From Ignavibacteriota bacterium (lineage in GTDB: Bacteria > Bacteroidota > Ignavibacteria > UBA10030 > SZUA-254): a stretch of 64,000 bases of DNA. Every line of letters starts with the position of its first letter. The stretch's first letter is position 1. The stretch spans positions 1-64,000 of the forward strand of contig JACREZ010000038.1 in assembly GCA_016212665.1 (NCBI GenBank). Reading direction: 5' to 3'. The position numbers and the translations under genes are program-made. Below the pieces are notes generated by a model. That model saw only the letters and a list, made by a program, of their open reading frames with translations. It was not told the DNA's origin and made no database searches. Positions 37,108 to 49,402 of the stretch are shown one piece after another.

Positions 37108-39822
37108 TTAGAACGGAACAACATTATCCGGCAAAATCGTCGGTGTGGGTGGAGGCGCAAGCGCTTCCAACGCACGATGCGCTAACCGCTCGAAACTCGC
37201 GTATTCTTTTCGGAACGAAAGACGAACGATTCCCGTGGGTCCGTTACGTTGCTTGCCGATAATAATTTCCGCAATGCCTTCGGTCGGGATCGGAGTTCCA
37301 TCTTCGTCTTTTATTTCTGTTATGCCGTACGTTTCCGGGCGATGGACAAACATGACAACGTCTGCGTCCTGCTCGATGGCGCCCGAATTATGAGTGAGAA
37401 TTCCATCCGCTAACCATGTTGAGGTTTTCGGAACTGTTAAATCATACACATCCTCTTTGCCTAAAGGAGTGATTTCTGAAATAGTATCCCAGAAGATATC
37501 GTTCGTTGCATAATTTTTCAGTGTTGCATCGCCAAGGAGAGTAGCGTATTCCATCGCCAGGTTTCGTGACGGTGCAAAATTGAAATGCGCACTTCCTCCG
37601 TAAACTGTTCCCCGCATTGAAGCCATCTCGCGATGTGTTATTCCTTGTGCTTTCATCGTCTTTTTCACAAGTCTGAAAAATTCAACCGGAAGAGTATCAA
37701 CATTCGTGTTTGGAATTACCCCGTTAAGGTTTTTCAACAGTAATTTTGCCTGCGGGAGACGGGGACCGAAGGCGCCTATTTCGTTTAAAAAAATATGTAA
37801 TTGTTCGGTACCGGTAATTACTACGGAATAATTAGGACGATAGTTAGCCTTTTTTGTTGTTTTGATTCGGGCGACTATCGAAAAACGAAGGAGAAGAGCG
37901 GCAACATCATGTGCGAGTTGCGCGCTCGTTGTTGAATAATATATTGTACTTGCACCACGTTTCCTGAAATGAATACATCCATCAGTTGCCCAGAGATGAC
38001 GCAGGAAAAGAGCAAGTTGAACGTTCGCAAGATTGAAGAGTTCATCCGGGATATGTTTCTCGTACGAACGTTGATTAAAAATTCCAAGTTTTCTCAGCCA
38101 CAAATTTACACCGGTTGGATGCCAGCGGTTTCCGTTGCCACTCAGCAATAATTGGTGCCACGAATATTTTCCCTTGTATCGTTTCACGGTTGTTCCGAAT
38201 TCTTTCTCAGCGGCTTTAGTTACCATCAAACTATTTTCGGAAGAACTTGTCGTGTATCGAAGCGGTTGACCTTGCAAGTAACTTCCATCACCGATTAAGT
38301 GGGCAAGTAATGCAAGCCTGTAATCTGTCCACTGGTTTTTGTGTGAATCTGATGACGTAATTTTCCGTGCGATTGCAAGACGGTCTCCCTCTTTGAGCGT
38401 TCGCACTTCACGCCAGCCATCAAATGTATAGAGCCTATGTTGTTTTGTAGCTTTAATTGTTCTTCCGCTCGCCAACCGAACTTCAAATACTTCCTTCTTG
38501 CCAACCTGCCAGACTTTATCGCTTATTGTGCTCGTGAGTTTTCCTTCCGATGTCATCGAAAGAACTTTAGGTTGTTGACCGACAAGGTCGCGAATCGGAA
38601 TTCGTCTTCCATCGGCAAGCATGACAAGTGTATCGCCGGTAACACATTCTCGTAAATCCGAAAGCATCGGTCGCTTGTCGCTTCGTCCTTCAACAGCGCG
38701 GTTCAACTGCGAAAGCGCAATAACGGGGATTCCGATTTCTTTCGCGAGCGCTTTCAACGAACGGGAAATCATCGAAATTTCCCGTTCACGCGACTCTGAG
38801 GATTTCGGTCCCTGAATCAATTGGAGATAATCCACAATTACTAAACCGATATTGTGTTCCGCTTTGAGTCGGCGTGCCTTTGCTCGTAATTCCAAAATCC
38901 CGAGTGCGGGTGTGTCATCAATAAATATTTTTGTTTGCGTAAGTTTGCCTGCTGCCCGGCTAAGTTTCGTCCAATCCTCATCTTGCAATCTGCCCGTGCG
39001 AAGTTTATGCGCGTCCACTCTTGCTTCAGAGGCAAGCATACGAACGGCAAGTTGTTGCTCTGCCATTTCGATGCTGAAGATAAGAACCGGTGTCGGTTTC
39101 TGTTTATCCGTCGCGGAGTTCCGGGCAATAGATAATGCAAATGCTGTTTTTCCCTGACTCGGTCTTCCCGCGATAATAATCAAATCGGAATTTTGAAATC
39201 CTCCGCTTAACTCGTCAAGACCGGAAAAACCTGTCGGAACACCGGTAACTCCTCCGTGCTGTCCGTGAATTTCATGCAACATTTCAAACGTATCGGTAAT
39301 TGCTCGCTTGATTGGCGTTGCGGCTTTCTTCAGTCGTCGTTCGGAAATCTGGAAGATTTTTGTTTCGGCATCATCAAGCAAATCGAGAGCATCTTCCGTT
39401 TCGTTGTATGCGCGTGAGGCAACATCGGTCGAGGCGGCAATCAATCCGCGCTTCAATGCTTTCTCCAATACGATGCGGGCATGATACTCCACATTTGCAG
39501 AAGAGGAAACATTCATCGTCAGTTGTGCGATGTACACTGGGTCTTCGGTCGGATTGAGTTGCCCGCGCCGCCGTAATTCTTCAACAAGAGTTACAGCATC
39601 AACCGGCTCTGCTTTTTCAAACAACGCCGTCATTGCTTTGAAATATTTTTGATGCGTCGGGTTATAGAAACTCGAATCATCCAACACTTCGAGCGCCTTC
39701 GGGAGCGCTTCACGGTCAATCAGCATCGCCCCGATAACAGAACGCTCGACATCAACCGCCTGCGGGGGAATCCGCCCGCCGGAAACATCATCGCCGTATT
39801 TTTGTTCGATGTATTCAGCCAT
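37108..39822 (-). CDS. dnaB: Replicative DNA helicase DnaB, intein-containing precursor
   Basis: The 904-residue precursor is DnaB interrupted by an in-frame intein at residues 393-812. After splicing the helicase would be 484 residues, the normal size. The extein shows the DnaB N-terminal domain (SVIGAMLIDREAL), Walker A GRPSQGKTAFAL near residue 219, and the DnaB DYLQLIQGP and SQLNRAVE segments. The insertion falls between SDLRE and SGAIEQDADV, in the conserved ATPase core. The start overlaps the stop of the upstream glycosylase gene by one base, implying translational coupling. DnaB unwinds DNA at the replication fork. A DnaA-box cluster lies 3.8 kb upstream of this start. Confidence 0.96.
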   Translation of the reverse strand: MAEYIEQKYGDDVSGGRIPPQAVDVERSVIGAMLIDREALPKALEVLDDSSFYNPTHQKYFKAMTALFEKAEPVDAVTLVEELRRRGQLNPTEDPVYIAQLTMNVSSSANVEYHARIVLEKALKRGLIAASTDVASRAYNETEDALDLLDDAETKIFQISERRLKKAATPIKRAITDTFEMLHEIHGQHGGVTGVPTGFSGLDELSGGFQNSDLIIIAGRPSQGKTAFALSIARNSATDKQKPTPVLIFSIEMAEQQLAVRMLASEARVDAHKLRTGRLQDEDWTKLSRAAGKLTQTKIFIDDTPALGILELRAKARRLKAEHNIGLVIVDYLQLIQGPKSSESREREISMISRSLKALAKEIGIPVIALSQLNRAVEGRSDKRPMLSDLRECVTGDTLVMLADGRRIPIRDLVGQQPKVLSMTSEGKLTSTISDKVWQVGKKEVFEVRLASGRTIKATKQHRLYTFDGWREVRTLKEGDRLAIARKITSSDSHKNQWTDYRLALLAHLIGDGSYLQGQPLRYTTSSSENSLMVTKAAEKEFGTTVKRYKGKYSWHQLLLSGNGNRWHPTGVNLWLRKLGIFNQRSYEKHIPDELFNLANVQLALFLRHLWATDGCIHFRKRGASTIYYSTTSAQLAHDVAALLLRFSIVARIKTTKKANYRPNYSVVITGTEQLHIFLNEIGAFGPRLPQAKLLLKNLNGVIPNTNVDTLPVEFFRLVKKTMKAQGITHREMASMRGTVYGGSAHFNFAPSRNLAMEYATLLGDATLKNYATNDIFWDTISEITPLGKEDVYDLTVPKTSTWLADGILTHNSGAIEQDADVVMFVHRPETYGITEIKDEDGTPIPTEGIAEIIIGKQRNGPTGIVRLSFRKEYASFERLAHRALEALAPPPTPTILPDNVVPF
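37387..38646 (-). mobile_element. Intein with LAGLIDADG-type homing endonuclease in DnaB
   Basis: This is a 420-codon protein intron. It begins with nucleophile Cys (CVTGDTLVMLADG, block A) and has the block B TIKATKQHRLYTFDGW. It ends with block F/G (EDVYDLTVPKTSTWLADG, then LTHN), followed by extein Ser. The middle holds two dodecapeptide-like LAGLIDADG motifs (LLAHLIGDGSY and LRHLWATDGCI), so the homing endonuclease looks complete. All splicing residues (Cys1, block B His, terminal His-Asn, Ser+1) are present. Confidence 0.95.
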
Positions 39823-40532
39823 CAGGTGGTTGCTTTCATTTCATCGTACAATTTTTTAAACATCTTCATATCTTCCCACGCGGGATATTTCCAGTTCGGG
39901 TTGCGGAGAAGCGCGGCCGGATGATACGTGACGATAAGTTTTGTTCCATGATAATTATGCACTTTCTCCCGCAACGAGCCGAGCGTCGCATTGGTTTGCA
40001 ACAGCCACTGAGCGGAAATTCTACCGAGACAAATGATAAATTTCGGTTTTACTAATTCAATTTGTTTGGTTAAATACGGAGTACAGGTTTCCATTTCCGT
40101 CGGTTGCGGGTCCCGGTTGCCCGGCGGTCTGCATTTCAGAATATTGCAGATATACACATCTTCCCGCTTCATCTGCACTGCTTCGATGATTTTGTTGAGC
40201 AGTTGTCCTGCACGACCAACGAACGGCTGACCTTGCGCGTCTTCATCCGCGCCGGGGGCTTCACCGATAAACATCACATCCGCGTTCGGGTTGCCGACGC
40301 CGAACACAAAGTTTGTTCGCGTTTCTCCGAGCGGACATTTCAAACAGGTACAAATTTGTTTGTTCAGTTCGCCAAGTGTTCCCGCTTTTGTCCACTGCTC
40401 ATCCGAAACGATAGCCACTTCTTCTTTCTTCTCTTCTTTATACATGATGTTGCCGAATAAATCAGTTTGTTGCACGAGATACTGCTTTGTGTTTTCGATG
40501 ACGGAGTGAAATTCTTCTTCGAGTGATGGCAT
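39822..40532 (-). CDS. Uracil-DNA glycosylase, family 4 (FeS type)
   Basis: The 236-residue protein removes uracil from deaminated DNA and carries a [4Fe-4S] cluster. The motif [18 protein letters not shown] near residues 60-78 gives the first cluster cysteines. [17 protein letters not shown] is the catalytic loop. [13 protein letters not shown] and the later [10 protein letters not shown] motif complete the family signature. About 40 extra residues precede the core. It sits two bases after coaBC and shares one base with dnaB. Confidence 0.92.
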
Positions 40533-40534
40533 CG

Positions 40535-41749
40535 TTACGCTTTCATGTTCTTTGCGACGCGGTCAAGGATGGCGTTGGCAACATCAAGTTTTGACATTTT
40601 CGGGAGTCGCTCGGTTTTACCTGCGCGTGAAATAATGCTGACGATGTTCGTATCAACACCGAACGCAGCGCCTTCTTCAAGCGCATTGTTCAACACAATG
40701 AAATCAAGATTCTTCGATTTCAGTTTCTCTTTCGCGTTCTTCATTCCATCATGCGTTTCAAGAGCGAAGCCGACGAGTATTTCGTTTTTCTTTTTCGCTC
40801 CCAACGTTCCGAGAATATCTTTCGTCTTTTTCAAGACAGTTACCCACCCCTGCTGCATTTCTTCTTTTTTGATTTTCACCGAATGAACATTCTGTGGAGA
40901 GTAATCGGCAACAGCAGCAGACATGATGATCACATTCTTTTTCGTCCGATGCTTCATGACGGCATTGAACATTTGCTCGGCAGATTCAACATCAATGCGA
41001 TGAACATTGTTCGGCGTTTCAAGATGAGTGGGACCGGAAACGAGTGTGACCTTCGCGCCGCGTAATGCCGCGGCATGTGCAAGCGCAAATCCCATTTTCC
41101 CTGATGAACGATTCCCGATAAACCGAACCGGGTCGAGCGCTTCATATGTCGGTCCGGCGGTCACTAAAATATTTTTGCCGCGGAAATCTTCATACGTGCG
41201 GGAAAGAATTCTCTCAAGTGATTTGACAAGCGATTCTACTTCCGGCATTCTTCCTTCTCCGACCAAGCCGCTTGCAAGTTCCCCTGTTTCCGGGGGAAGG
41301 ACAAAATATCCAAGTTGTCTGAGCGTGGAAAGATTTTTCTGTGTTGCAGGGTGATTCCACATGTCAACATCCATCGCCGGAGAAAGAATCAACGGACAAC
41401 GAAGCGCAAGCGTCAACATTGTCACCGCATTGTCGGCATAACCATGTGTAAGTTTGGCGAGTGTGTTTGCTGTCGCTGGCGCAATCAGCATCGCATCTGC
41501 CCACTGACCGAGATTCACATGCCACGTCTCCGCCTTAACGACGGAATCTTCGGGTGGAAAAATATCAACAATAACTTCATTGCCGGAAAGCGTAGCCAGT
41601 GTTTCCGCCGTGATGAATTGTGACGCCGACTTCGTTATCACGACTTTCACTTCCGCGTTCGCTTTTTTCAGAAGTCGAACGAGAAGCGGGATTTTATACG
41701 CGGCAATTCCTCCCGTTACTCCTAGGATGATATGTTTACCGTTGAGCAT
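40535..41749 (-). CDS. coaBC: Phosphopantothenoylcysteine decarboxylase / phosphopantothenate-cysteine ligase
   Basis: The 404-residue bifunctional enzyme makes 4'-phosphopantetheine for coenzyme A. The FMN-binding CoaC half has LGVTGGIAAYKIP, the catalytic His in ETWHVNLGQWAD, APATANTLAK and SPAMDVDMW. The CoaB half starts near residue 185 with ILVTAGPTYEALDPVRFI and contains RSSGKMGFALAHAA. Length and order match E. coli Dfp. It lies 26 bases after rpoZ in the same operon, a common gene neighbourhood (gmk-rpoZ-coaBC). Confidence 0.95.
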   Translation of the reverse strand: MLNGKHIILGVTGGIAAYKIPLLVRLLKKANAEVKVVITKSASQFITAETLATLSGNEVIVDIFPPEDSVVKAETWHVNLGQWADAMLIAPATANTLAKLTHGYADNAVTMLTLALRCPLILSPAMDVDMWNHPATQKNLSTLRQLGYFVLPPETGELASGLVGEGRMPEVESLVKSLERILSRTYEDFRGKNILVTAGPTYEALDPVRFIGNRSSGKMGFALAHAAALRGAKVTLVSGPTHLETPNNVHRIDVESAEQMFNAVMKHRTKKNVIIMSAAVADYSPQNVHSVKIKKEEMQQGWVTVLKKTKDILGTLGAKKKNEILVGFALETHDGMKNAKEKLKSKNLDFIVLNNALEEGAAFGVDTNIVSIISRAGKTERLPKMSKLDVANAILDRVAKNMKA

Positions 41750-41775: not shown

Positions 41776-42090
41776 TTAGAATTCCGATTCTTTGTAGCGG
41801 AAGGAGAGTTTATCTCCCATCACTTCTTCGAGAGCAGTTTCTGTTGGTTTCGGTCGGATTTCAAAATCACGAGCGATGAGAATTTGGTCGGGATTGGTCA
41901 CCGGCTGGTCCGGTTCCGTTTCTTCCTCAACCATTTTCGGCGGAAGCATTTCAACGCGTTGGTTGAATTCAATTTTCATCTCTTCGTTGATTTGCCGTGC
42001 CCGCTTCGACATCACCACGATTGCTTCATAAATGTTGTCTGCTTTTGATTCAAGTTTATTTATATCTAATGGACGTACTGCCATGTTCAT
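41776..42090 (-). CDS. rpoZ: RNA polymerase omega subunit
   Basis: The 104-residue protein matches the Bacteroidota/Chlorobiota form of omega. ADNIYEAIVVMSKRARQINEEM near residues 17-38 is the conserved helix that clamps the beta-prime subunit. Position between gmk and coaBC is the standard context. Two ATGs, at 42090 and 42084, are both plausible starts. Confidence 0.9.
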   Translation of the reverse strand: MNMAVRPLDINKLESKADNIYEAIVVMSKRARQINEEMKIEFNQRVEMLPPKMVEEETEPDQPVTNPDQILIARDFEIRPKPTETALEEVMGDKLSFRYKESEF

Positions 42091-42117: not shown

Positions 42118-42705
42118 TCAAACACTCTGAGTTAACTGTTCTTCGTCAATGTAACGTTTGATGATTGCATCAACATCGGTAATTGCTTTTTCCAAATTAT
42201 CGTTCACAACATGTTCGTCGAAGTGAACACGTTGTTCCAGTTCCATCGGCACACGTTCAATGCGCCGCTTCAGCGACTCACCATCTTCCGTCTTGCGGTT
42301 TTTAAGCCGTTGAATCAATTCATCCAAACTTGGCGGCTCAATAAAAATCAACACCGCTTGTTCAGGATAATGTCGTTTGATGGAAAGCGCGCCCTTCACA
42401 TCAATATCAAACACCATCGAACATCCCCCAAGCAATGCCCGGTCAACTTCACGACAGAGTGTGCCGTAATAATTTCCGTAAATCTCTTCCCATTCAACCA
42501 GCGCGCCATCACGGATGTTGCTCATAAATTCTTCGAGCGGAATGAAGAAATAATCTTTTCCGTCAACTTCGTTCGGGCGTTTCGGTCGTGACGTTGCCGA
42601 AACGGAAAACAGCATTTCAGGATGCCGTTGCAAAATTGCGTGTGCAATAGTCGTCTTGCCGCAACCGCTCGGAGCGGAGAACACAAACAGTTTCGGTCCG
42701 CTCAT
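42118..42705 (-). CDS. gmk: Guanylate kinase
   Basis: The 195-residue kinase converts GMP to GDP. The P-loop is FSAPSGCGKTTIAHAIL at residues 7-23. The GMP-binding region follows as SATSRPKRPNEVDGKDYFF and EWEEIYGNYYG, with the lid region RLKNRKTEDGESLKRR. It overlaps the yicC stop by four bases (ATGA) and is followed by rpoZ. Confidence 0.96.
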   Translation of the reverse strand: MSGPKLFVFSAPSGCGKTTIAHAILQRHPEMLFSVSATSRPKRPNEVDGKDYFFIPLEEFMSNIRDGALVEWEEIYGNYYGTLCREVDRALLGGCSMVFDIDVKGALSIKRHYPEQAVLIFIEPPSLDELIQRLKNRKTEDGESLKRRIERVPMELEQRVHFDEHVVNDNLEKAITDVDAIIKRYIDEEQLTQSV

Positions 42706-43583
42706 TCGATGTTCTGAAGTTGTTCCCGGATTTTTTCCAATTCTTCTTTGATGAGGACGACCTTCTGCGCGATTTCCGCGTCCATCGTTTTCGAGCCGAT
42801 GGTGTTTGCTTCCCGGTTCATCTCTTGCAAAAGGAACGTAAGTTTTCTTCCGGCTGATTCATCTTTCTTCAATGCTTCAAGAAAAAATTTTGTATGACTC
42901 CGAAAACGAACACACTCTTCTGTTACGTCGAGTTTATCCGAGAGTAAAATAATTTCCAGTTCCAGCCGCTTGTCATCAATAATTGATACATCGCTTGCAA
43001 GTTGCGCGACTCGTTCCCGCAACTTCACCCGTTCGTTCGGAATCCGTTCCTTACTCATCGCATCAATTTCTTCAACAGTATCGGCGATGAGGTTGATGCG
43101 GCTACGGACATCCTTCTCAAGTTCTTTCCCTTCGTTCGAGCGCATCGTCATGAGCGAATCAATCGCTTTCGTCAATGCTTCGAGTGCAACTTCCCATTCC
43201 TCCGTGTCGGTTTCGTCTCCTTCGGGCGCTTCAAATATTTCGGAAAACGTCAGCAAATGTTGCAACGAAACTTCTTCTTGTATCCCCGATATTTTCCGAA
43301 TGTCCTGTAACAAGTTCATGTACGCCTTCACCGCCGCTTCGTTGACGGTAATCGGCAGTTCCTCCGCGTTGTCCCGCTCAACCGTTACGGAAACATTAAT
43401 TTTTCCCCGCGTCAACTGCTTGCGGACAAATTCTTTTGCATCGTTCTCCCGCAACTGAAGCGAGCGAGGAAGACGCACGGTCAGTTCCATAAAGCGGTTG
43501 TTGACGCTCCTGACTTCGGCACGTGCGGAGATACCATTGCGTTCGGCTTCACCGCTTCCGTAGCCGGTCATACTAAAAATCAT
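42702..43583 (-). CDS. yicC: YicC-family endoribonuclease
   Basis: The 293-residue protein begins MIFSMTGYGSGEA, the family hallmark, and ends with the DUF1732 region (TIGSKTMDAEIAQKVVLIKEELEKIREQLQN-type helix). YicC-like proteins are RNA endonucleases implicated in small-RNA decay. It heads the leftward operon and overlaps gmk by four bases, as in many bacteria. Confidence 0.93.
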   Translation of the reverse strand: MIFSMTGYGSGEAERNGISARAEVRSVNNRFMELTVRLPRSLQLRENDAKEFVRKQLTRGKINVSVTVERDNAEELPITVNEAAVKAYMNLLQDIRKISGIQEEVSLQHLLTFSEIFEAPEGDETDTEEWEVALEALTKAIDSLMTMRSNEGKELEKDVRSRINLIADTVEEIDAMSKERIPNERVKLRERVAQLASDVSIIDDKRLELEIILLSDKLDVTEECVRFRSHTKFFLEALKKDESAGRKLTFLLQEMNREANTIGSKTMDAEIAQKVVLIKEELEKIREQLQNIE

Positions 43584-44080
43584 AGATTTTTCTTTGTTTT
43601 GAAGGAATTGTCTAAAAAGGCAACTCTAAGGTACAAAAAAATCCGGTAGGCTTCAAACGGTTGTTTTGCACAGGTTTTCCACCGACTTATCCACAGGCTT
43701 TCCACAGGGAACATCTGCTTTTTGTATTTTTTTGCTTGATTTGATTACTCTGTGGAAAACTTTTTCGAGTTATGCACACTGGGCGGATACCAATTAGCTA
43801 AATATTTTTTGACGGTTGTTTATCTCACCTTTATTGTCGTTAAGTTTACCCGGGTGGTCACGTTCCACACAGTGACAGATTTACCATTGGTCATGGAATG
43901 GTCATTACTGCCCAGAGAAATAAATAGCCGGTTTTGCTCTTGACTGCAAGAGGAGACACATGTATTATACTCCCGTGATTTTTCCGAGAATAATACGCCG
44001 CACAAACACCGTTATGGAATTGAATATTTCCGATATGCTTTGTATGTTGGAAAAGAATTCTATAACAAGAAAGGTGTACA
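43584..44080. other. About 500-base intergenic region at a strand switch
   Basis: The first ~200 bases hold the DnaA-box-like cluster (43664-43778) and an AT-rich tract at about 43718-43748. The rest contains an inverted repeat GTCAC..GTGAC near 43858-43877 and no convincing gene. A 63-codon rightward frame at 43752-43943 has no recognisable content. Confidence 0.6.
43664..43778. other. Cluster of DnaA-box-like 9-mers (candidate oriC or DnaA-control site)
   Basis: Within 115 bases I count TTTTGCACA (43664), TTTTCCACC (43675), the perfect box TTATCCACA (43687), CTTTCCACA (43698), TGTGGAAAA on the other strand (43751) and TTATGCACA (43770). An AT-rich tract lies between the fourth and fifth, resembling a duplex-unwinding element. 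Genes diverge from this point. No dnaA gene is in the window. The boxes are seen. Origin function is inference. Confidence 0.55.
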
Positions 44081-44185
44081 ATGAGTAAGCGATTGCTCGG
44101 ACACTCAAAACGAATTGACCAATGGTTAAATAACAGGAGACTGATACCATCGAACAGAATATTCAATGGAAGTTTGCTTGAATGA
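44081..44185 (+). CDS. 34-residue possible leader peptide
   Basis: ATG 44081 opens a 34-codon frame (starting MSKRLLGHSKRIDQW, strongly basic). It ends in a TGA overlapping the next gene's ATG as ATGA. AAAGG lies eight bases before the start. The overlap suggests translational coupling, but the downstream protein may really begin at a later ATG, so the call is tentative. Confidence 0.35.
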   Translation: MSKRLLGHSKRIDQWLNNRRLIPSNRIFNGSLLE

Positions 44186-45852
44186 ATATCAAGGACATAG
44201 GTTTTAGTTTTTCACATTTCAAAATGAAATATGTGCTTTCTCAACAATTTGAGAGAACAGATAAACAAAAAGTAGTTTCATTTTTGCTGCTTTCTCTTCT
44301 GACGACAATCATGAGTACATTCAATGTTTGGGCAAATAATGTGCTATCAAACCATTCTTCGTTTATTAAAAGTGAACGGATGAATTCGACGTCTCAATCA
44401 ATGTTTATTGATTCCTTCACCATCAGAGTTAAGCCGGGATGGAATCTGATCTCAATTCCTTTTTTTCCGGATGAACCTTGTCTGAGAAATATTTTCTCCA
44501 GCTCGAAGTCAACTGCCTTTTTTTACAACGGAAAAAGTTATTTCCCCTATGATTCTATAATTTCCGGTAAAGCATTTTGGATGAAGTTTTCAGCGGAGGA
44601 TTCATTCACCATGTACGGGCAAAAACAATTTGAAGAAGAAATTTTTCTCCATCCACAATGGAATCTTATTTCGGGAACCCGAAAAGCGTCAGCAACATCT
44701 GGCTTAATGTTTTCTTCAGATACGTTGCTTGCTACCGGTTTTTACGGATATAATACCGACACCGGATATTCGCTTACAGATACATTACAATCTGGAAATG
44801 GATACTGGGTTAAAGCAACAACAACAGGAAAGATAATGACAACCCAATGGGAATATCTTGGACTTGACGGTGAACGAATTTCATCCATTGCGATTCATCC
44901 ACAGAATCCGAATATTGTCTATTGCGGAAGTCTTTCAGATTTTAGTTCGGGAGTGCCTGGGAAACTGTTTAAATCTACCAATGAAGGATTTGATTGGGAC
45001 ACTGTACTCATCGGAGGATACTTCAAACAGATTGAATTCGACGTAGTACACCCTGAAACAATCTACGTCGTGAACGATTTTATTTTAAAAAGTACAGATG
45101 GAGGAACGACGTGGGCGCGAAGAGATAGCGGTATCTATATTGATTGGGAAACTTTCGTTTCCTGCTTGGCAATTCATCCAACAAATAGAGATGTACTCTA
45201 TGCCGGTACAGCGGGATTTTATGGCGGGAAATTTTATAAAAGCACCAATGGTGGTCTCTCATGGCAAGATGTTACAACTAATGATACACTGAGAGATGGA
45301 GTAACGGTTATCAGAATTGACGATACAAACCCAAACACTATGTATGTAGGAACCGGATGGAGTGGTACACTCTTGAAAACCACGAATGCAGGCACCACGT
45401 GGTCAACAACAGGATTCAAGCCGAACGGTTGGATTATCAACGATGTGTTCATTCATCCGGTACGCACTAATGAATTGGTTCTTGCAACTTATGACACAGC
45501 CTTTTATCGAAGTTCTGACGCTGGTGTGACGTGGTATCCATATGACGCTGGTTTGCCACATAATTATCCTCCATCTCCTGAATTACCGGATACAATCGTT
45601 GTAGGAACTAAGTTAATATTTGATAAGGAAAAAGATATAATTTTGGGGTTGTTTGGACAAGGACAGACAGATCCCCCTTATCATCTAGGAACAGATAGAG
45701 GTATCTATGTATTTCCACATGATAATTCACCTTGGTATAAAATAAGATTTCATACAATTAGTGCTTTTGGCGAGGTAGATATTAATTTATCTCCAAACAC
45801 TGGCTTTCTTTATCTAGGGGGAATGGCTATGTATAGGTTGAAGTACAAATGA
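44182..45852 (+). CDS. Exported BNR/Ycf48-like repeat protein without sorting domain
   Basis: The 556-residue protein has an internal hydrophobic stretch (VVSFLLLSLLTTIMSTFNVWA, residues about 30-50) that looks like a signal peptide. Translation may therefore begin at the ATG at 44224 (MKYVLSQQ). Residues about 80-220 contain a doubled 'GWNLISIPF ... AFWMKF' and 'WNLISG ... GYWVKA' module shared with the giant exported proteins. The remainder is a series of BNR/Asp-box-like blades (KSTDGGTTWARR, KTTNAGTTWSTT, RSSDAGVTWYPY) of the sialidase/photosystem-stability-factor type. Unlike its relatives it ends without a YPNPFNP sorting domain (last residues MYRLKYK), so it may be periplasmic or truncated. 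Confidence 0.75.
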   Translation: MNIKDIGFSFSHFKMKYVLSQQFERTDKQKVVSFLLLSLLTTIMSTFNVWANNVLSNHSSFIKSERMNSTSQSMFIDSFTIRVKPGWNLISIPFFPDEPCLRNIFSSSKSTAFFYNGKSYFPYDSIISGKAFWMKFSAEDSFTMYGQKQFEEEIFLHPQWNLISGTRKASATSGLMFSSDTLLATGFYGYNTDTGYSLTDTLQSGNGYWVKATTTGKIMTTQWEYLGLDGERISSIAIHPQNPNIVYCGSLSDFSSGVPGKLFKSTNEGFDWDTVLIGGYFKQIEFDVVHPETIYVVNDFILKSTDGGTTWARRDSGIYIDWETFVSCLAIHPTNRDVLYAGTAGFYGGKFYKSTNGGLSWQDVTTNDTLRDGVTVIRIDDTNPNTMYVGTGWSGTLLKTTNAGTTWSTTGFKPNGWIINDVFIHPVRTNELVLATYDTAFYRSSDAGVTWYPYDAGLPHNYPPSPELPDTIVVGTKLIFDKEKDIILGLFGQGQTDPPYHLGTDRGIYVFPHDNSPWYKIRFHTISAFGEVDINLSPNTGFLYLGGMAMYRLKYK

Positions 45853-45926
45853 AAATAATTGAAAAGGAACGTAGTCCACCCACCAAAAAAAGCGCCCCCA
45901 AGCAACATATCAGCATTAAAAAACCG

Positions 45927-45997
45927 TTTCTCGTTCCCACGCTCCTATCAATTATCAGGAGTGGGAATGTAAGCCCGAATGCTCCGCGTCCTTCATA
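45927..45997. repeat. REP-like repeat, copy 1
   Basis: TTTCTCGTTCCCACGC, about 17 bases and GTGGGAATG form a stem-loop. The first 43 bases match 46467-46509 with one mismatch, and the similarity continues more loosely (GCTCC.GCGTCCTT) for about 28 more. The two direct copies flank the 21-bp minisatellite. Confidence 0.8.
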
Positions 45998-46083
45998 AAA
46001 CTATTTCCCAATTCATCCTGTCCACGATTATCAATCAGTTCCAACTTTTCTCGAATATTGAGTTAGTACCGATGAAAACGAAC

Positions 46084-46491
46084 TCAAATCGCTCCTCCCT
46101 CAAAAACACTCCGATTTCGCCTGTTTTCCGTCCGTAATTGAATTCCGGGAGTCCGTAACTCCGCCACGGACTCCCGTACCTGTGCCACGGACTCCCGTAC
46201 CTGTACCACGGACTCCCGTACTTGTGCCACGGACTCCCGTACCTGTGCCACGGACTCCCGTACCTGTACCACGGACTCCCGTACTTGTGCCACGGACTCC
46301 CGTACCTGTACCACGGACTCCCGTACCTGTACCACGGACTCCCGTACCTGTACCACGGACTCCCGTACCTGTGCTACGGACTCCCGTACCTTTGCCACGG
46401 ACTCCCGTACTTGTGCTATGGACTCCCGTAGCCGCGCCACGGACACCTGCTTCCTATGACGGATGTTTTCTCGTTCCCACGCTCCTATCAA
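46084..46491 (-). CDS. Doubtful CDS: VRESVAQ heptad-repeat protein
   Basis: A 135-codon frame spells about 13 heptads of the type VRES-V(A/V)Q, which would form a coiled coil. However, its only start is a TTG inside a REP-like repeat. The opposite strand is equally open (PRTPVPV repeats), because a 21-base period keeps all frames free of stops. No ribosome-binding site is visible. I list it because the other 21-bp repeat array (3408-4130) is in a convincing gene. More likely this one is a noncoding minisatellite. Confidence 0.25.
46164..46436. repeat. Minisatellite, 13 units of 21 bp
   Basis: Thirteen contiguous 21-base units with the core CGGACTCCCGTA are present. Variation is nearly all at three positions after the core (CTG/TTG, TG/TA). 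Units 11 and 13 are the most diverged, and a partial unit precedes the array. There are no spacers, so it is not a CRISPR array. It is flanked by direct REP-like repeats. Confidence 0.95.
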
Positions 46492-46538
46492 TTATCAGGC
46501 GTGGGAATGAATAGCCGGACGCTCCTGCGTCCTTTAGC
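46467..46538. repeat. REP-like repeat, copy 2
   Basis: This is the direct copy of 45927-45997 in the same orientation. Here the stem is nine base pairs (TTCCCACGC / GCGTGGGAA). The sequence style resembles a GTTCCCACGCT..GCGTGGGAAT family that I recall from several phyla. Confidence 0.8.
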
Positions 46539-46637
46539 GGGCAAAGAGCGACTCACTTACACTGAAGTAAACATGTTTATTGTTCTCACCTCCCTTTTGA
46601 ATATATTGCAGAAAATTTAACCCAACAATTCATTCCC

Positions 46638-48290
46638 ATGTTTGTCCATTATTTCACGCTTCGCACGTTGTGCAACGAACTCCATGAATCGCTCCATGGC
46701 ACTTCTATCGTAGAAGTATTTTCCCAGCAGAAGAATGAACTTTGTTTGATGCTGGAAAAAGAAGGAACGGAGATGACGCTTTGCATTTCCGTTGAGTCGG
46801 GGATGAATTATTGTCTGCTGAGAAATGATTTCAACCGTGCGCGGAAAAATTCCGTTGATTTGTTTCAACCGCTTCCTGGATTGAGCATCAAACAGATTTC
46901 CATTCATCCCACAGAAAGAATGCTGGTGGTTGATGTTGAAGACGGGATGAGGTTGTCTCTTCAACTGTATAATACTGCCGCGAGCAATATTCTTCTTACC
47001 AACCGTGAACAGGTTGTGAGTGAAGCATTCAAACGCGGAGATGAACTGAATGGGAAGCCGATGACAATTTCTTCCCGCGGCGATTGGAATATCGTGAAGG
47101 ACAATCAACATTTCACTGACGCGTTAAAACAGTTTGGGGAGAGGTCGGTGGAGGAAAGTATACGAAAAATTCTTCCCATGTTCGGGATGCTCTATTCAAA
47201 AGAAGTGCTGGTTCGTTCAGGGATTGACAGATTGAAGCAGACGGCATCACTAAACGAAACAGAAGTTCATTCCCTGTTCGATTCCGTTACCTCGCTTCTT
47301 CGCGAACTGGAACACGCGCACCCGGTTGTGTATTATGAAGAAGGAATTCCCGTCACTCTTTCGATGATGGAGTTACAACAGTTCAAAGAAAACGATTCAA
47401 AACGGTTTGAGAGTGTGAATGAAGCGGTGAGAATGTTGCTCGGTCAATCCTTCCGTGCGAAAAGTTTCGAGCATAAGAAGAATGAATTGCTTGATGCTCT
47501 CCGTCGTTCACTGAATCAAACAGAACGAACGGTGAAAGCAATCGAAAAAGAACTCGCTTCTTCCGAACGTGCAGAAGAATACGAACGAACCGGACACGCG
47601 ATTATGGCAAATCTTCATTCAATCAACAAAGGAATGAAGCAAATAGAATTAAGCGATGCGGAGGATTCAGAAAAGCAATTGAACATTCAACTCGAACCGG
47701 CGCTGACGCCGCATCAAAACGCCGAGCGATATTTTGAAAAAGCACGGAAAGCAAAACTCGCCCGTGCTGAAGCGGAGCAACGGCTTCACTCTCAAACTCG
47801 GCATCATTCAATGCTTCAACAATTTGTTAGTGAATTAGAAACATGTAGCTCACCGGATGAATTAAAAGAATGGATGATTCGGAACGAAGAACAGTTGTTG
47901 TTTCTCAAATCATCAAAAAATGATGAAGAGCGGATTCCGTTCCGGGTGTTTATGGTGGCAGGCGGTTTCGAGGTATGGGTGGGGAAAAGTTCTGCCAATA
48001 ACGATTTACTGACAACAAAATATGCCAAGCCGAATGATTTGTGGTTTCATGCACGCGGTGTTGGCGGTTCTCATACGGTGTTAAAAGTATCCGGCGGAAA
48101 GGTTCCGCCGCGCGAGGCAATCCAACAAACGGCGAGCATTGCGGCATATTACAGCAAAATGAGAAACGCACGCAATGTTCCGGTCGCCTACTGCGAGCGA
48201 AAATACGTCCGGAAACCGAAGGGCGTTCACGAAGGGACGGTGTTTCTTGAACGGGAAGAGGTGATGTTTGTGGAGCCGCGACTTCCGTAG
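46638..48290 (+). CDS. rqcH: Ribosome quality-control protein RqcH (NFACT family)
   Basis: The 550-residue protein belongs to the Rqc2/NEMF/FbpA family. It binds 50S subunits with stalled peptidyl-tRNA and adds C-terminal alanine tails. The N-terminal NFACT-N domain covers residues 1 to about 180 (FTLRTLCNELHESL, SNILLTNREQ). Helix-hairpin-helix and coiled-coil regions follow (about 270-400, charged). The NFACT-R domain is at the end, with KPNDLWFHARGVGGSH and YCERKYVRKPKG. The length is normal. It is followed by microcompartment genes with their own promoter, so no functional link is implied. Confidence 0.88.
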   Translation: MFVHYFTLRTLCNELHESLHGTSIVEVFSQQKNELCLMLEKEGTEMTLCISVESGMNYCLLRNDFNRARKNSVDLFQPLPGLSIKQISIHPTERMLVVDVEDGMRLSLQLYNTAASNILLTNREQVVSEAFKRGDELNGKPMTISSRGDWNIVKDNQHFTDALKQFGERSVEESIRKILPMFGMLYSKEVLVRSGIDRLKQTASLNETEVHSLFDSVTSLLRELEHAHPVVYYEEGIPVTLSMMELQQFKENDSKRFESVNEAVRMLLGQSFRAKSFEHKKNELLDALRRSLNQTERTVKAIEKELASSERAEEYERTGHAIMANLHSINKGMKQIELSDAEDSEKQLNIQLEPALTPHQNAERYFEKARKAKLARAEAEQRLHSQTRHHSMLQQFVSELETCSSPDELKEWMIRNEEQLLFLKSSKNDEERIPFRVFMVAGGFEVWVGKSSANNDLLTTKYAKPNDLWFHARGVGGSHTVLKVSGGKVPPREAIQQTASIAAYYSKMRNARNVPVAYCERKYVRKPKGVHEGTVFLEREEVMFVEPRLP

Positions 48291-48372: not shown

Positions 48373-48660
48373 ATGGCGGACATATCACTTGATGCACTCG
48401 GAATGGTAGAAACCAAAGGATTGGTCGGCTCCATCGAAGCTGCCGATGCAATGGTCAAAGCGGCAAAGGTTACGCTTCTCGGAAAAGAAGTTATCGGCGG
48501 CGGTTACGTAACCGTTATGGTACGCGGCGACGTCGGCGCAGTGAAAGCGGCAACCGATGCAGGCGCGGCGGCGGCACAACGAGTCGGTGAATTGGTTTCG
48601 GTGCATGTCATTCCTCGTCCGCACTCCGACGTGGAAATGATTCTTCCGAAACGCGGATAA
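48373..48660 (+). CDS. Bacterial microcompartment shell protein, BMC-H
   Basis: The 95-residue single-BMC-domain protein ([20 protein letters not shown]) would form hexamers that tile a microcompartment shell. The pore-loop region reads [18 protein letters not shown], very close to my memory of the CsoS1 carboxysome proteins (GGGYVTVLVRGE). The end, [15 protein letters not shown], matches the family C-terminus. It is followed 40 bases later by a second BMC protein with a long tail. No encapsulated enzyme, pentamer (BMC-P) or trimer is encoded in the window, so the cargo is unknown. Confidence 0.95.
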
Positions 48661-48700
48661 TATTTCCTCGCAACTCCACTTTCATTTTTCTTCCGAACGT

Positions 48701-49402
48701 ATGTTGGATTATGCTCTCGGGCTGATTGAAACGCGCGGGCTTGTCGGCGCAATTGAAGCGGCAGACGCGATGGTCAAAGCGGCGCATGTCGAATTGATTG
48801 GCAAAGAACGCGTTGACGCGGGGTTCATCGTCATCAAAGTCAAAGGCGATGTTGCTTCCGTGAAAGCGGCGGTTGATGCCGGCGCTGCTGCGGCGCAACG
48901 CGTTGGTGAATTGATTTCCACGCACGTCATTCCTCGACCGGATGCCGATGTGGAAATTTTGATTTATCCTCCGCCATCGCAAACGAAAGAGAAATCGCTT
49001 CCGCATTTTCCTAAGGCAGAACCGGAGAAGAAGAAGAAAGAAAAACCCACGGCGGTTCCTCCGTCGGAACCAAAGAAAAAACGGGGGCGACCCGTAAAAT
49101 CAAAAAAAGGAATTCAGCAAAAAATTGAAGAGCAACCGCAGGTTGAAATTCCTCTTGTAGTCGAACAAGCAGCGGAACCAATTCCGGTTGTCGAGCCGAC
49201 GGCTCCGTTGCCGATAGTGAATGATTCGATTCCCGCTGTGGATGAACAATCATACATGGCGGAACTTGATAAACTTTCCGTCCATGAGTTGCGGCACTAT
49301 GCGCGAAGTGTTCCCGGACTTTCTATTTACGGACGACAAATATCCCGCGCAAACAGGGGAGAGTTAGAAGCGGAATTGTTGAAAGTAAAATTCCCAAAGT
49401 AG
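48701..49402 (+). CDS. BMC-H shell protein with nucleic-acid-binding-like tail
   Basis: The 233-residue protein has a normal BMC domain in residues 1-90 (LGLIETRGLVGAIEAADAM to HVIPRPDADVEIL), with a pore-region VDAGF instead of GGGY. Residues about 95-185 are a Lys/Pro/Glu-rich linker containing KKKRGRPVKSKKG, an AT-hook-like RGRP core. Residues about 188-233 read LDKLSVHELRHYARSVPGL, YGRQISRANRGEL and so on, matching the Rho-N/SAP-type helix-extended-loop-helix fold. The tail therefore has two potential DNA- or RNA-binding elements. It is cotranscribed with the plain BMC-H gene. Its role, anchoring a shell to the nucleoid or packaging nucleic acid, is inference. Confidence 0.9.
   Translation: MLDYALGLIETRGLVGAIEAADAMVKAAHVELIGKERVDAGFIVIKVKGDVASVKAAVDAGAAAAQRVGELISTHVIPRPDADVEILIYPPPSQTKEKSLPHFPKAEPEKKKKEKPTAVPPSEPKKKRGRPVKSKKGIQQKIEEQPQVEIPLVVEQAAEPIPVVEPTAPLPIVNDSIPAVDEQSYMAELDKLSVHELRHYARSVPGLSIYGRQISRANRGELEAELLKVKFPK

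Follow-up and report, generated by a model that had tools for sequence, protein, structure and literature searches.

Does a dense cluster of DnaA boxes that is not located beside dnaA mark the place where a chromosome starts to replicate, or does it serve some other purpose? This question is raised by positions 43664-43778 of the window, i.e. the whole 64-kb stretch of the Ignavibacteriota contig analysed here. A sequence-only reading had noted there six DnaA-box-like 9-mers around an AT-rich tract, one of them perfect, and had offered either a chromosomal origin away from dnaA or a DnaA titration or control site for the operon that runs from yicC to dnaB. Based on sequence comparisons, we conclude that the cluster probably serves DnaA as a regulatory binding site within the promoter of the operon yicC-gmk-rpoZ-coaBC-udg-dnaB. 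The features of the locus are collected in Table 1.

Table 1. Features of the DnaA-box locus and its neighbouring genes (positions within the window)
Feature	Position	Strand	Remarks
dnaB replicative helicase with intein	37108..39822	-	Pfam PF00772/PF03796, intein PF14890, LAGLIDADG PF14528
udg, uracil-DNA glycosylase superfamily	39822..40532	-	Pfam PF03167
coaBC (DFP/flavoprotein)	40535..41749	-	Pfam PF04127/PF02441
rpoZ-like RNA polymerase omega/Rpb6	41776..42090	-	Pfam PF01192
gmk, guanylate kinase	42118..42705	-	Pfam PF00625
yicC (endoribonuclease YicC-like)	42702..43583	-	First gene of the operon; Pfam PF03755/PF08340
Predicted yicC -10 hexamer TACCTT	43628..43633	-	Consensus match only
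Predicted yicC -35 hexamer TTGAAG	43651..43656	-	Consensus match only; 17-bp spacer
DnaA box 1	43664..43672	+	TTTTGCACA; slot 7 bp beyond yicC -35
DnaA box 2	43675..43683	+	TTTTCCACC; slot 18, separated from box 1 by 2 bp
DnaA box 3	43687..43695	+	Perfect TTATCCACA; slot 30, separated from box 2 by 3 bp
DnaA box 4	43698..43706	+	CTTTCCACA; slot 41, separated from box 3 by 2 bp
AT-rich spacer from box 4 to the inverted box	43707..43750		Holds degenerate rqcH -10 GATTACTC
Inverted DnaA box	43751..43759	-	TTTTCCACA on - strand / TGTGGAAAA; 94 bp beyond -35
Outer DnaA box	43770..43778	+	TTATGCACA
rqcH promoter-like segment	46576..46615	+	Matches G001 yicC-rqcH intergenic region; box decayed to TGCAGAAAA
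rqcH/NFACT	46638..48290	+	Pfam PF05833/PF05670

The six 9-mers, one perfect, within 115 bases were confirmed, each having no more than two mismatches to TTATCCACA, and these are the densest 115 bp in the window. Single boxes with two mismatches are frequent (186 in the window), which is what would make a chance cluster within AT-rich DNA conceivable. However, when 115-bp windows were scored by giving 3, 2 or 1 points to boxes with 0, 1 or 2 mismatches, the cluster reached 10 and its closest competitor in the window 4, whereas Markov simulation of 60 sequences of 64 kb (3.8 Mb, about one genome's worth) produced maxima of 6 or less. A tandem repeat finder detected an 11-bp period at 43665-43708, matching boxes 1-4, and the pattern TTWTSCACA-N0-30-TTWTSCACA has a single match in the 3.9-Mb genome, which is this cluster. 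No Rfam matches were found close to it. The other points noted from the sequence were also borne out: the distance to the start of dnaB (39822) is 3.84 kb, as against the 3.8 kb given, and the divergent gene boundary is real, the rightward neighbour here being a secreted beta-propeller-like ORF (44182-45852).

The box cluster is conserved across the whole bacterial order, and lies upstream of yicC in most relatives. We compared 60 genomes, namely the window genome and 59 relatives from its order; yicC is present in every one. Of the 47 upstream regions that were long enough to score, 30 had a best window, no more than 300 bp from yicC, that scored 5 or higher. Among 300-bp stretches taken for comparison, 0.5% of the random ones and 1.4% of the AT-rich ones reach this score. 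The simulations, together with this comparison of 47 upstream regions that places the boxes at one and the same location across the order, rule out a chance cluster, the probability of which we regard as practically negligible. In 1.89 Mb of sampled sequence, a sample that is enriched for these very loci, scores of at least 7 were found in six places, three of them at dnaA and three at yicC. A genome-wide search of the 60 genomes for the double box WTCCACRNNTTATCMACA gave 18 matches (eight at dnaA, eight at yicC and two elsewhere), and the reversed control pattern gave none. Similarly, the inverted pair TTATCMACA-N30-60-TGTKGATAA was found in 18 distinct places, 15 of which are upstream of yicC or rqcH. 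The two double-box places off dnaA and yicC are L296 (G028:C13:114731) and L291 (G051:C62:2626); in the latter four perfect or near-perfect boxes cluster on a 4.6-kb contig, possibly representing a plasmid or phage origin. Within the order, members of family f2 and some of f1 and f6 retain the divergent genes and have no clear boxes, and the arrangement upstream of yicC was not seen in Rhodothermia, Kapabacteria, other Ignavibacteria or Clostridia. DnaA with a GGRDHST motif is present.

If the boxes regulate a promoter, one would expect boxes at a predicted promoter, preferably double ones with a spacing of 2-3 bp, in a position relative to that promoter that is kept in related species, and this is what we observed. 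A yicC promoter of the pattern TTG[AC]NN-16/18-TANNNT could be placed in 38 of 48 upstream regions. In the 36 regions that were long enough, same-strand boxes start 7, 17-18, 28-30 and 39-41 bp from the -35 edge, and 44 of 54 same-strand boxes fall in slots 7, 18, 30 or 41 (±1) where 16% would be expected, although co-inherited boxes are counted more than once here because the species are related, and the register is measured from consensus-match promoters in phylogenetically non-independent relatives. The inverted box is mostly found 92-97 bp beyond the -35 in relatives, most commonly at 94-95. Which slots are filled varies by species; in the window genome all four are, with gaps of 2-3 bp. 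In a genome of the same genus (G001) the position of the outer box is occupied by TTATCCACA. Since the distance from the yicC start to the -35 varies, the register is fixed to the promoter rather than to the start of the gene. The control-site interpretation of the sequence-only reading is thus supported by order-wide conservation, by the promoter register and by conservation of the operon: the order yicC-gmk-rpoZ-coaBC-udg-dnaB is preserved in nearly all loci tested, with udg and dnaB lying some kb apart in a few relatives. The DnaB intein, with its LAGLIDADG domain, occupies residues about 400-812, within the helicase domain.

A chromosomal replication origin separate from dnaA should combine a DnaA-box cluster and adjacent AT-rich DNA with a coincident GC-skew switch, and no other place should qualify equally well or better. 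At 43664-43778 there are indeed dense boxes next to an AT-rich tract, and as a single 115-bp cluster this one exceeds either dnaA-flanking cluster of the window genome. However, dnaA lies on another contig (C40) within the neighbourhood yidC-rnpA-rpmH, box cluster, dnaA, box cluster, dnaN, recF, gyrB, and the gene order rnpA-rpmH-dnaA-dnaN-recF-gyrB with flanking boxes is a common bipartite origin context. Whether dnaA has the better boxes, which the sequence-only reading had named as evidence against an origin here, depends on the measure: together the two clusters that flank dnaA hold more boxes, whereas the densest single 115 bp is that of yicC. The same reading had suggested that an origin would show as a GC-skew turn at about 43.7 kb. 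GC skew was sampled in 20-kb pieces, both as raw values and, strand by strand, from third codon positions. There is some skew change close to the site within the window, but skew is positive for only about 15 kb to its right and negative again at 60-92 kb of the contig, which has no sustained switch. In one relative (G043:C14) skew goes from mostly negative to positive between the 145-165 and 165-185 kb pieces, at dnaA (about 165-168 kb), with yicC (89 kb) falling within the arm that precedes the switch. In another (G024:C6) raw skew is negative in 13 of 13 pieces over the 344 kb surrounding yicC, and a switch is absent. The switch in a third relative (G009), at about 120-260 kb, is not sharp and lies nearer to dnaA (157 kb) than to yicC (355 kb), and the skew of G017 and of the window genome's own contigs is too noisy for placing a switch. 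In addition, the cluster is missing from several relatives, and in Melioribacter roseus, which belongs to the same broad group, the predicted origin is between dnaA and dnaN (PMC3534657). Because of the dnaA context and the skew in relatives we reject an origin at this cluster as highly improbable.

A different non-regulatory role is that of a locus for DnaA titration or inactivation, like the clusters of B. subtilis or datA of E. coli, which would set the timing of initiation and affect transcription only secondarily. In B. subtilis, DnaA-box clusters outside oriC do affect initiation (PMC5295017). Such a role would fit the observation that this is the tightest box cluster in the sampled sequence outside dnaA, and that boxes persist both in the window genome and in G032 despite the separation of one flanking gene. 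Furthermore, on contigs shared by the two genes yicC and dnaA are about 19, 58, 79 and 198 kb apart (G057:C8, G017:C23, G043:C14 and G009:C7, respectively), so that in this order the site may lie near the origin, though a sample of four genomes does not suffice for such a claim. Titration, however, has no need for a fixed register to the yicC -35, and just three to six boxes are present; we consider it unlikely as the main function, albeit worth keeping in mind. Somewhat more speculatively still, this could be an order-wide origin-proximal locus with two jobs, supplying dnaB through the four-slot array and titrating or resetting DnaA, as a lineage-specific counterpart of datA/DARS in the Bacteroidota-Chlorobi group.

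One may also consider that the site mainly controls rqcH (NFACT), yicC being incidental. In relatives rqcH is the usual direct divergent partner of yicC, the equivalent of the spacer carries the rqcH -10 (TATATTG), and the inverted box abuts that -10 (TATATTGTGGATAA). In the window genome rqcH is displaced by about 2.8-3 kb owing to a lineage-specific insertion of ~2.8 kb (43830-46570) between the DnaA-box site and rqcH, which contains the secreted ORF mentioned above (of Sortilin/BNR type) and an array of 21-bp repeats. The intergenic region of G001 aligns to both edges of this insertion; its alignment to the segment just upstream of rqcH scored 30, a value reached by none of 1000 shuffles. 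A direct repeat between the two edges scored 22, which 43 of 200 shuffles reached, and is therefore not above shuffles. The 21-bp tandem repeat (46163-46444) has 13.4 copies and is open on both strands (PRTPVPV on + and VRESVAQ on -), and part of the insertion (43973-44084) has an 86% copy in a further genome of the same genus, G002. Two adjoining genes with BMC domains (bacterial microcompartment shell) are found downstream of rqcH, at 48373-49402.

Compared with G001, the yicC side of the insertion has retained the boxes but no longer the rqcH -10, and the rqcH side has retained TTTTGAATATATTG, its box having decayed to TGCAGAAAA. In G032 the split is the opposite one, the box pair (L251, G032:C1:30539) being upstream of rqcH and yicC 14 kb off with a promoter of its own that has no boxes. 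Neither yicC nor rqcH alone can therefore explain the site everywhere, and since the pair of G032 stayed with rqcH, yicC need not be the sole target. Nevertheless, in the window genome it is rqcH that retained a promoter without the box and yicC that retained boxes without the rqcH -10, and control of mainly rqcH appears improbable.

Returning to regulation of the yicC-dnaB operon, we infer DnaA binding at the site, the transcriptional regulation and its sign. On the four tandem boxes, the first of which begins 7 bp upstream of the -35 of yicC, DnaA would assemble cooperatively into a short array directly against RNA polymerase. The inverted box, located about 53 bp past tandem box 4, would cap this array. 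In relatives it overlaps the region in which the divergent promoter of rqcH starts, and in most species it would also influence rqcH. Expression of the operon, with its genes for the helicase, a nucleotide kinase, a glycosylase of DNA repair and RNA metabolism, would thus follow the level of DnaA or its nucleotide state. In E. coli, nrdAB is activated by low DnaA-ATP or by DnaA-ADP through stabilisation of RNA polymerase, and repressed by high DnaA-ATP (PMC8203912). By analogy, an array 7 bp upstream of the -35 would be placed for activation, and might repress once it is fully loaded; at low or moderate levels of DnaA the operon would probably be activated.

If DnaA does bind here, then the initiator and the supply of the helicase are connected by a conserved link in an order of Ignavibacteria-like Bacteroidota that is largely uncultured, with a logic like that of Caulobacter and M. 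tuberculosis and an architecture of its own. The natural variation among species, in which slots are filled or empty and boxes accompany either yicC or rqcH, makes the rules of DnaA-controlled promoters testable. Such promoters are already known; the order-wide instance at the yicC-dnaB operon is new. Our literature search found no paper linking yicC with DnaA boxes and, in the literature searched, no described DnaA regulon for the Bacteroidota-Chlorobi group.

Among the closest known systems are the double-box promoters of E. coli (nrdA, polA, purH and nrdD), where, as at yicC, boxes 2-3 bp apart lie upstream of genes of replication, nucleotide synthesis, repair and RNA metabolism (PMC11317965). 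In vivo, E. coli DnaA prefers double boxes with this spacing, and its regulon ties initiation to these same processes (PMC11317965), a content that looks close to gmk, dnaB, udg and yicC of the present operon. In contrast to the E. coli promoters, the yicC site has another target operon and four tandem slots with an inverted box, and its boxes are predicted. Parallels with respect to the target are C. crescentus, where the DnaA regulon includes dnaB and boxes lie upstream of this gene (PMC8203912), and M. tuberculosis, where DnaA binds the dnaB promoter and a weaker-binding mutant under-expresses dnaB (PMC7738170); here, however, dnaB is distal in an operon led by yicC, about 3.8 kb from the boxes. 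The B. subtilis clusters outside oriC (PMC5295017) and E. coli datA are likewise non-origin DnaA-box clusters, but the boxes at yicC are in a fixed promoter register. Finally, a bipartite oriC around dnaA, of the B. subtilis type, uses the same 9-mers, and the window genome has such clusters at dnaA, whereas the yicC site is off dnaA, some relatives lack it, and in relatives the skew does not switch there.
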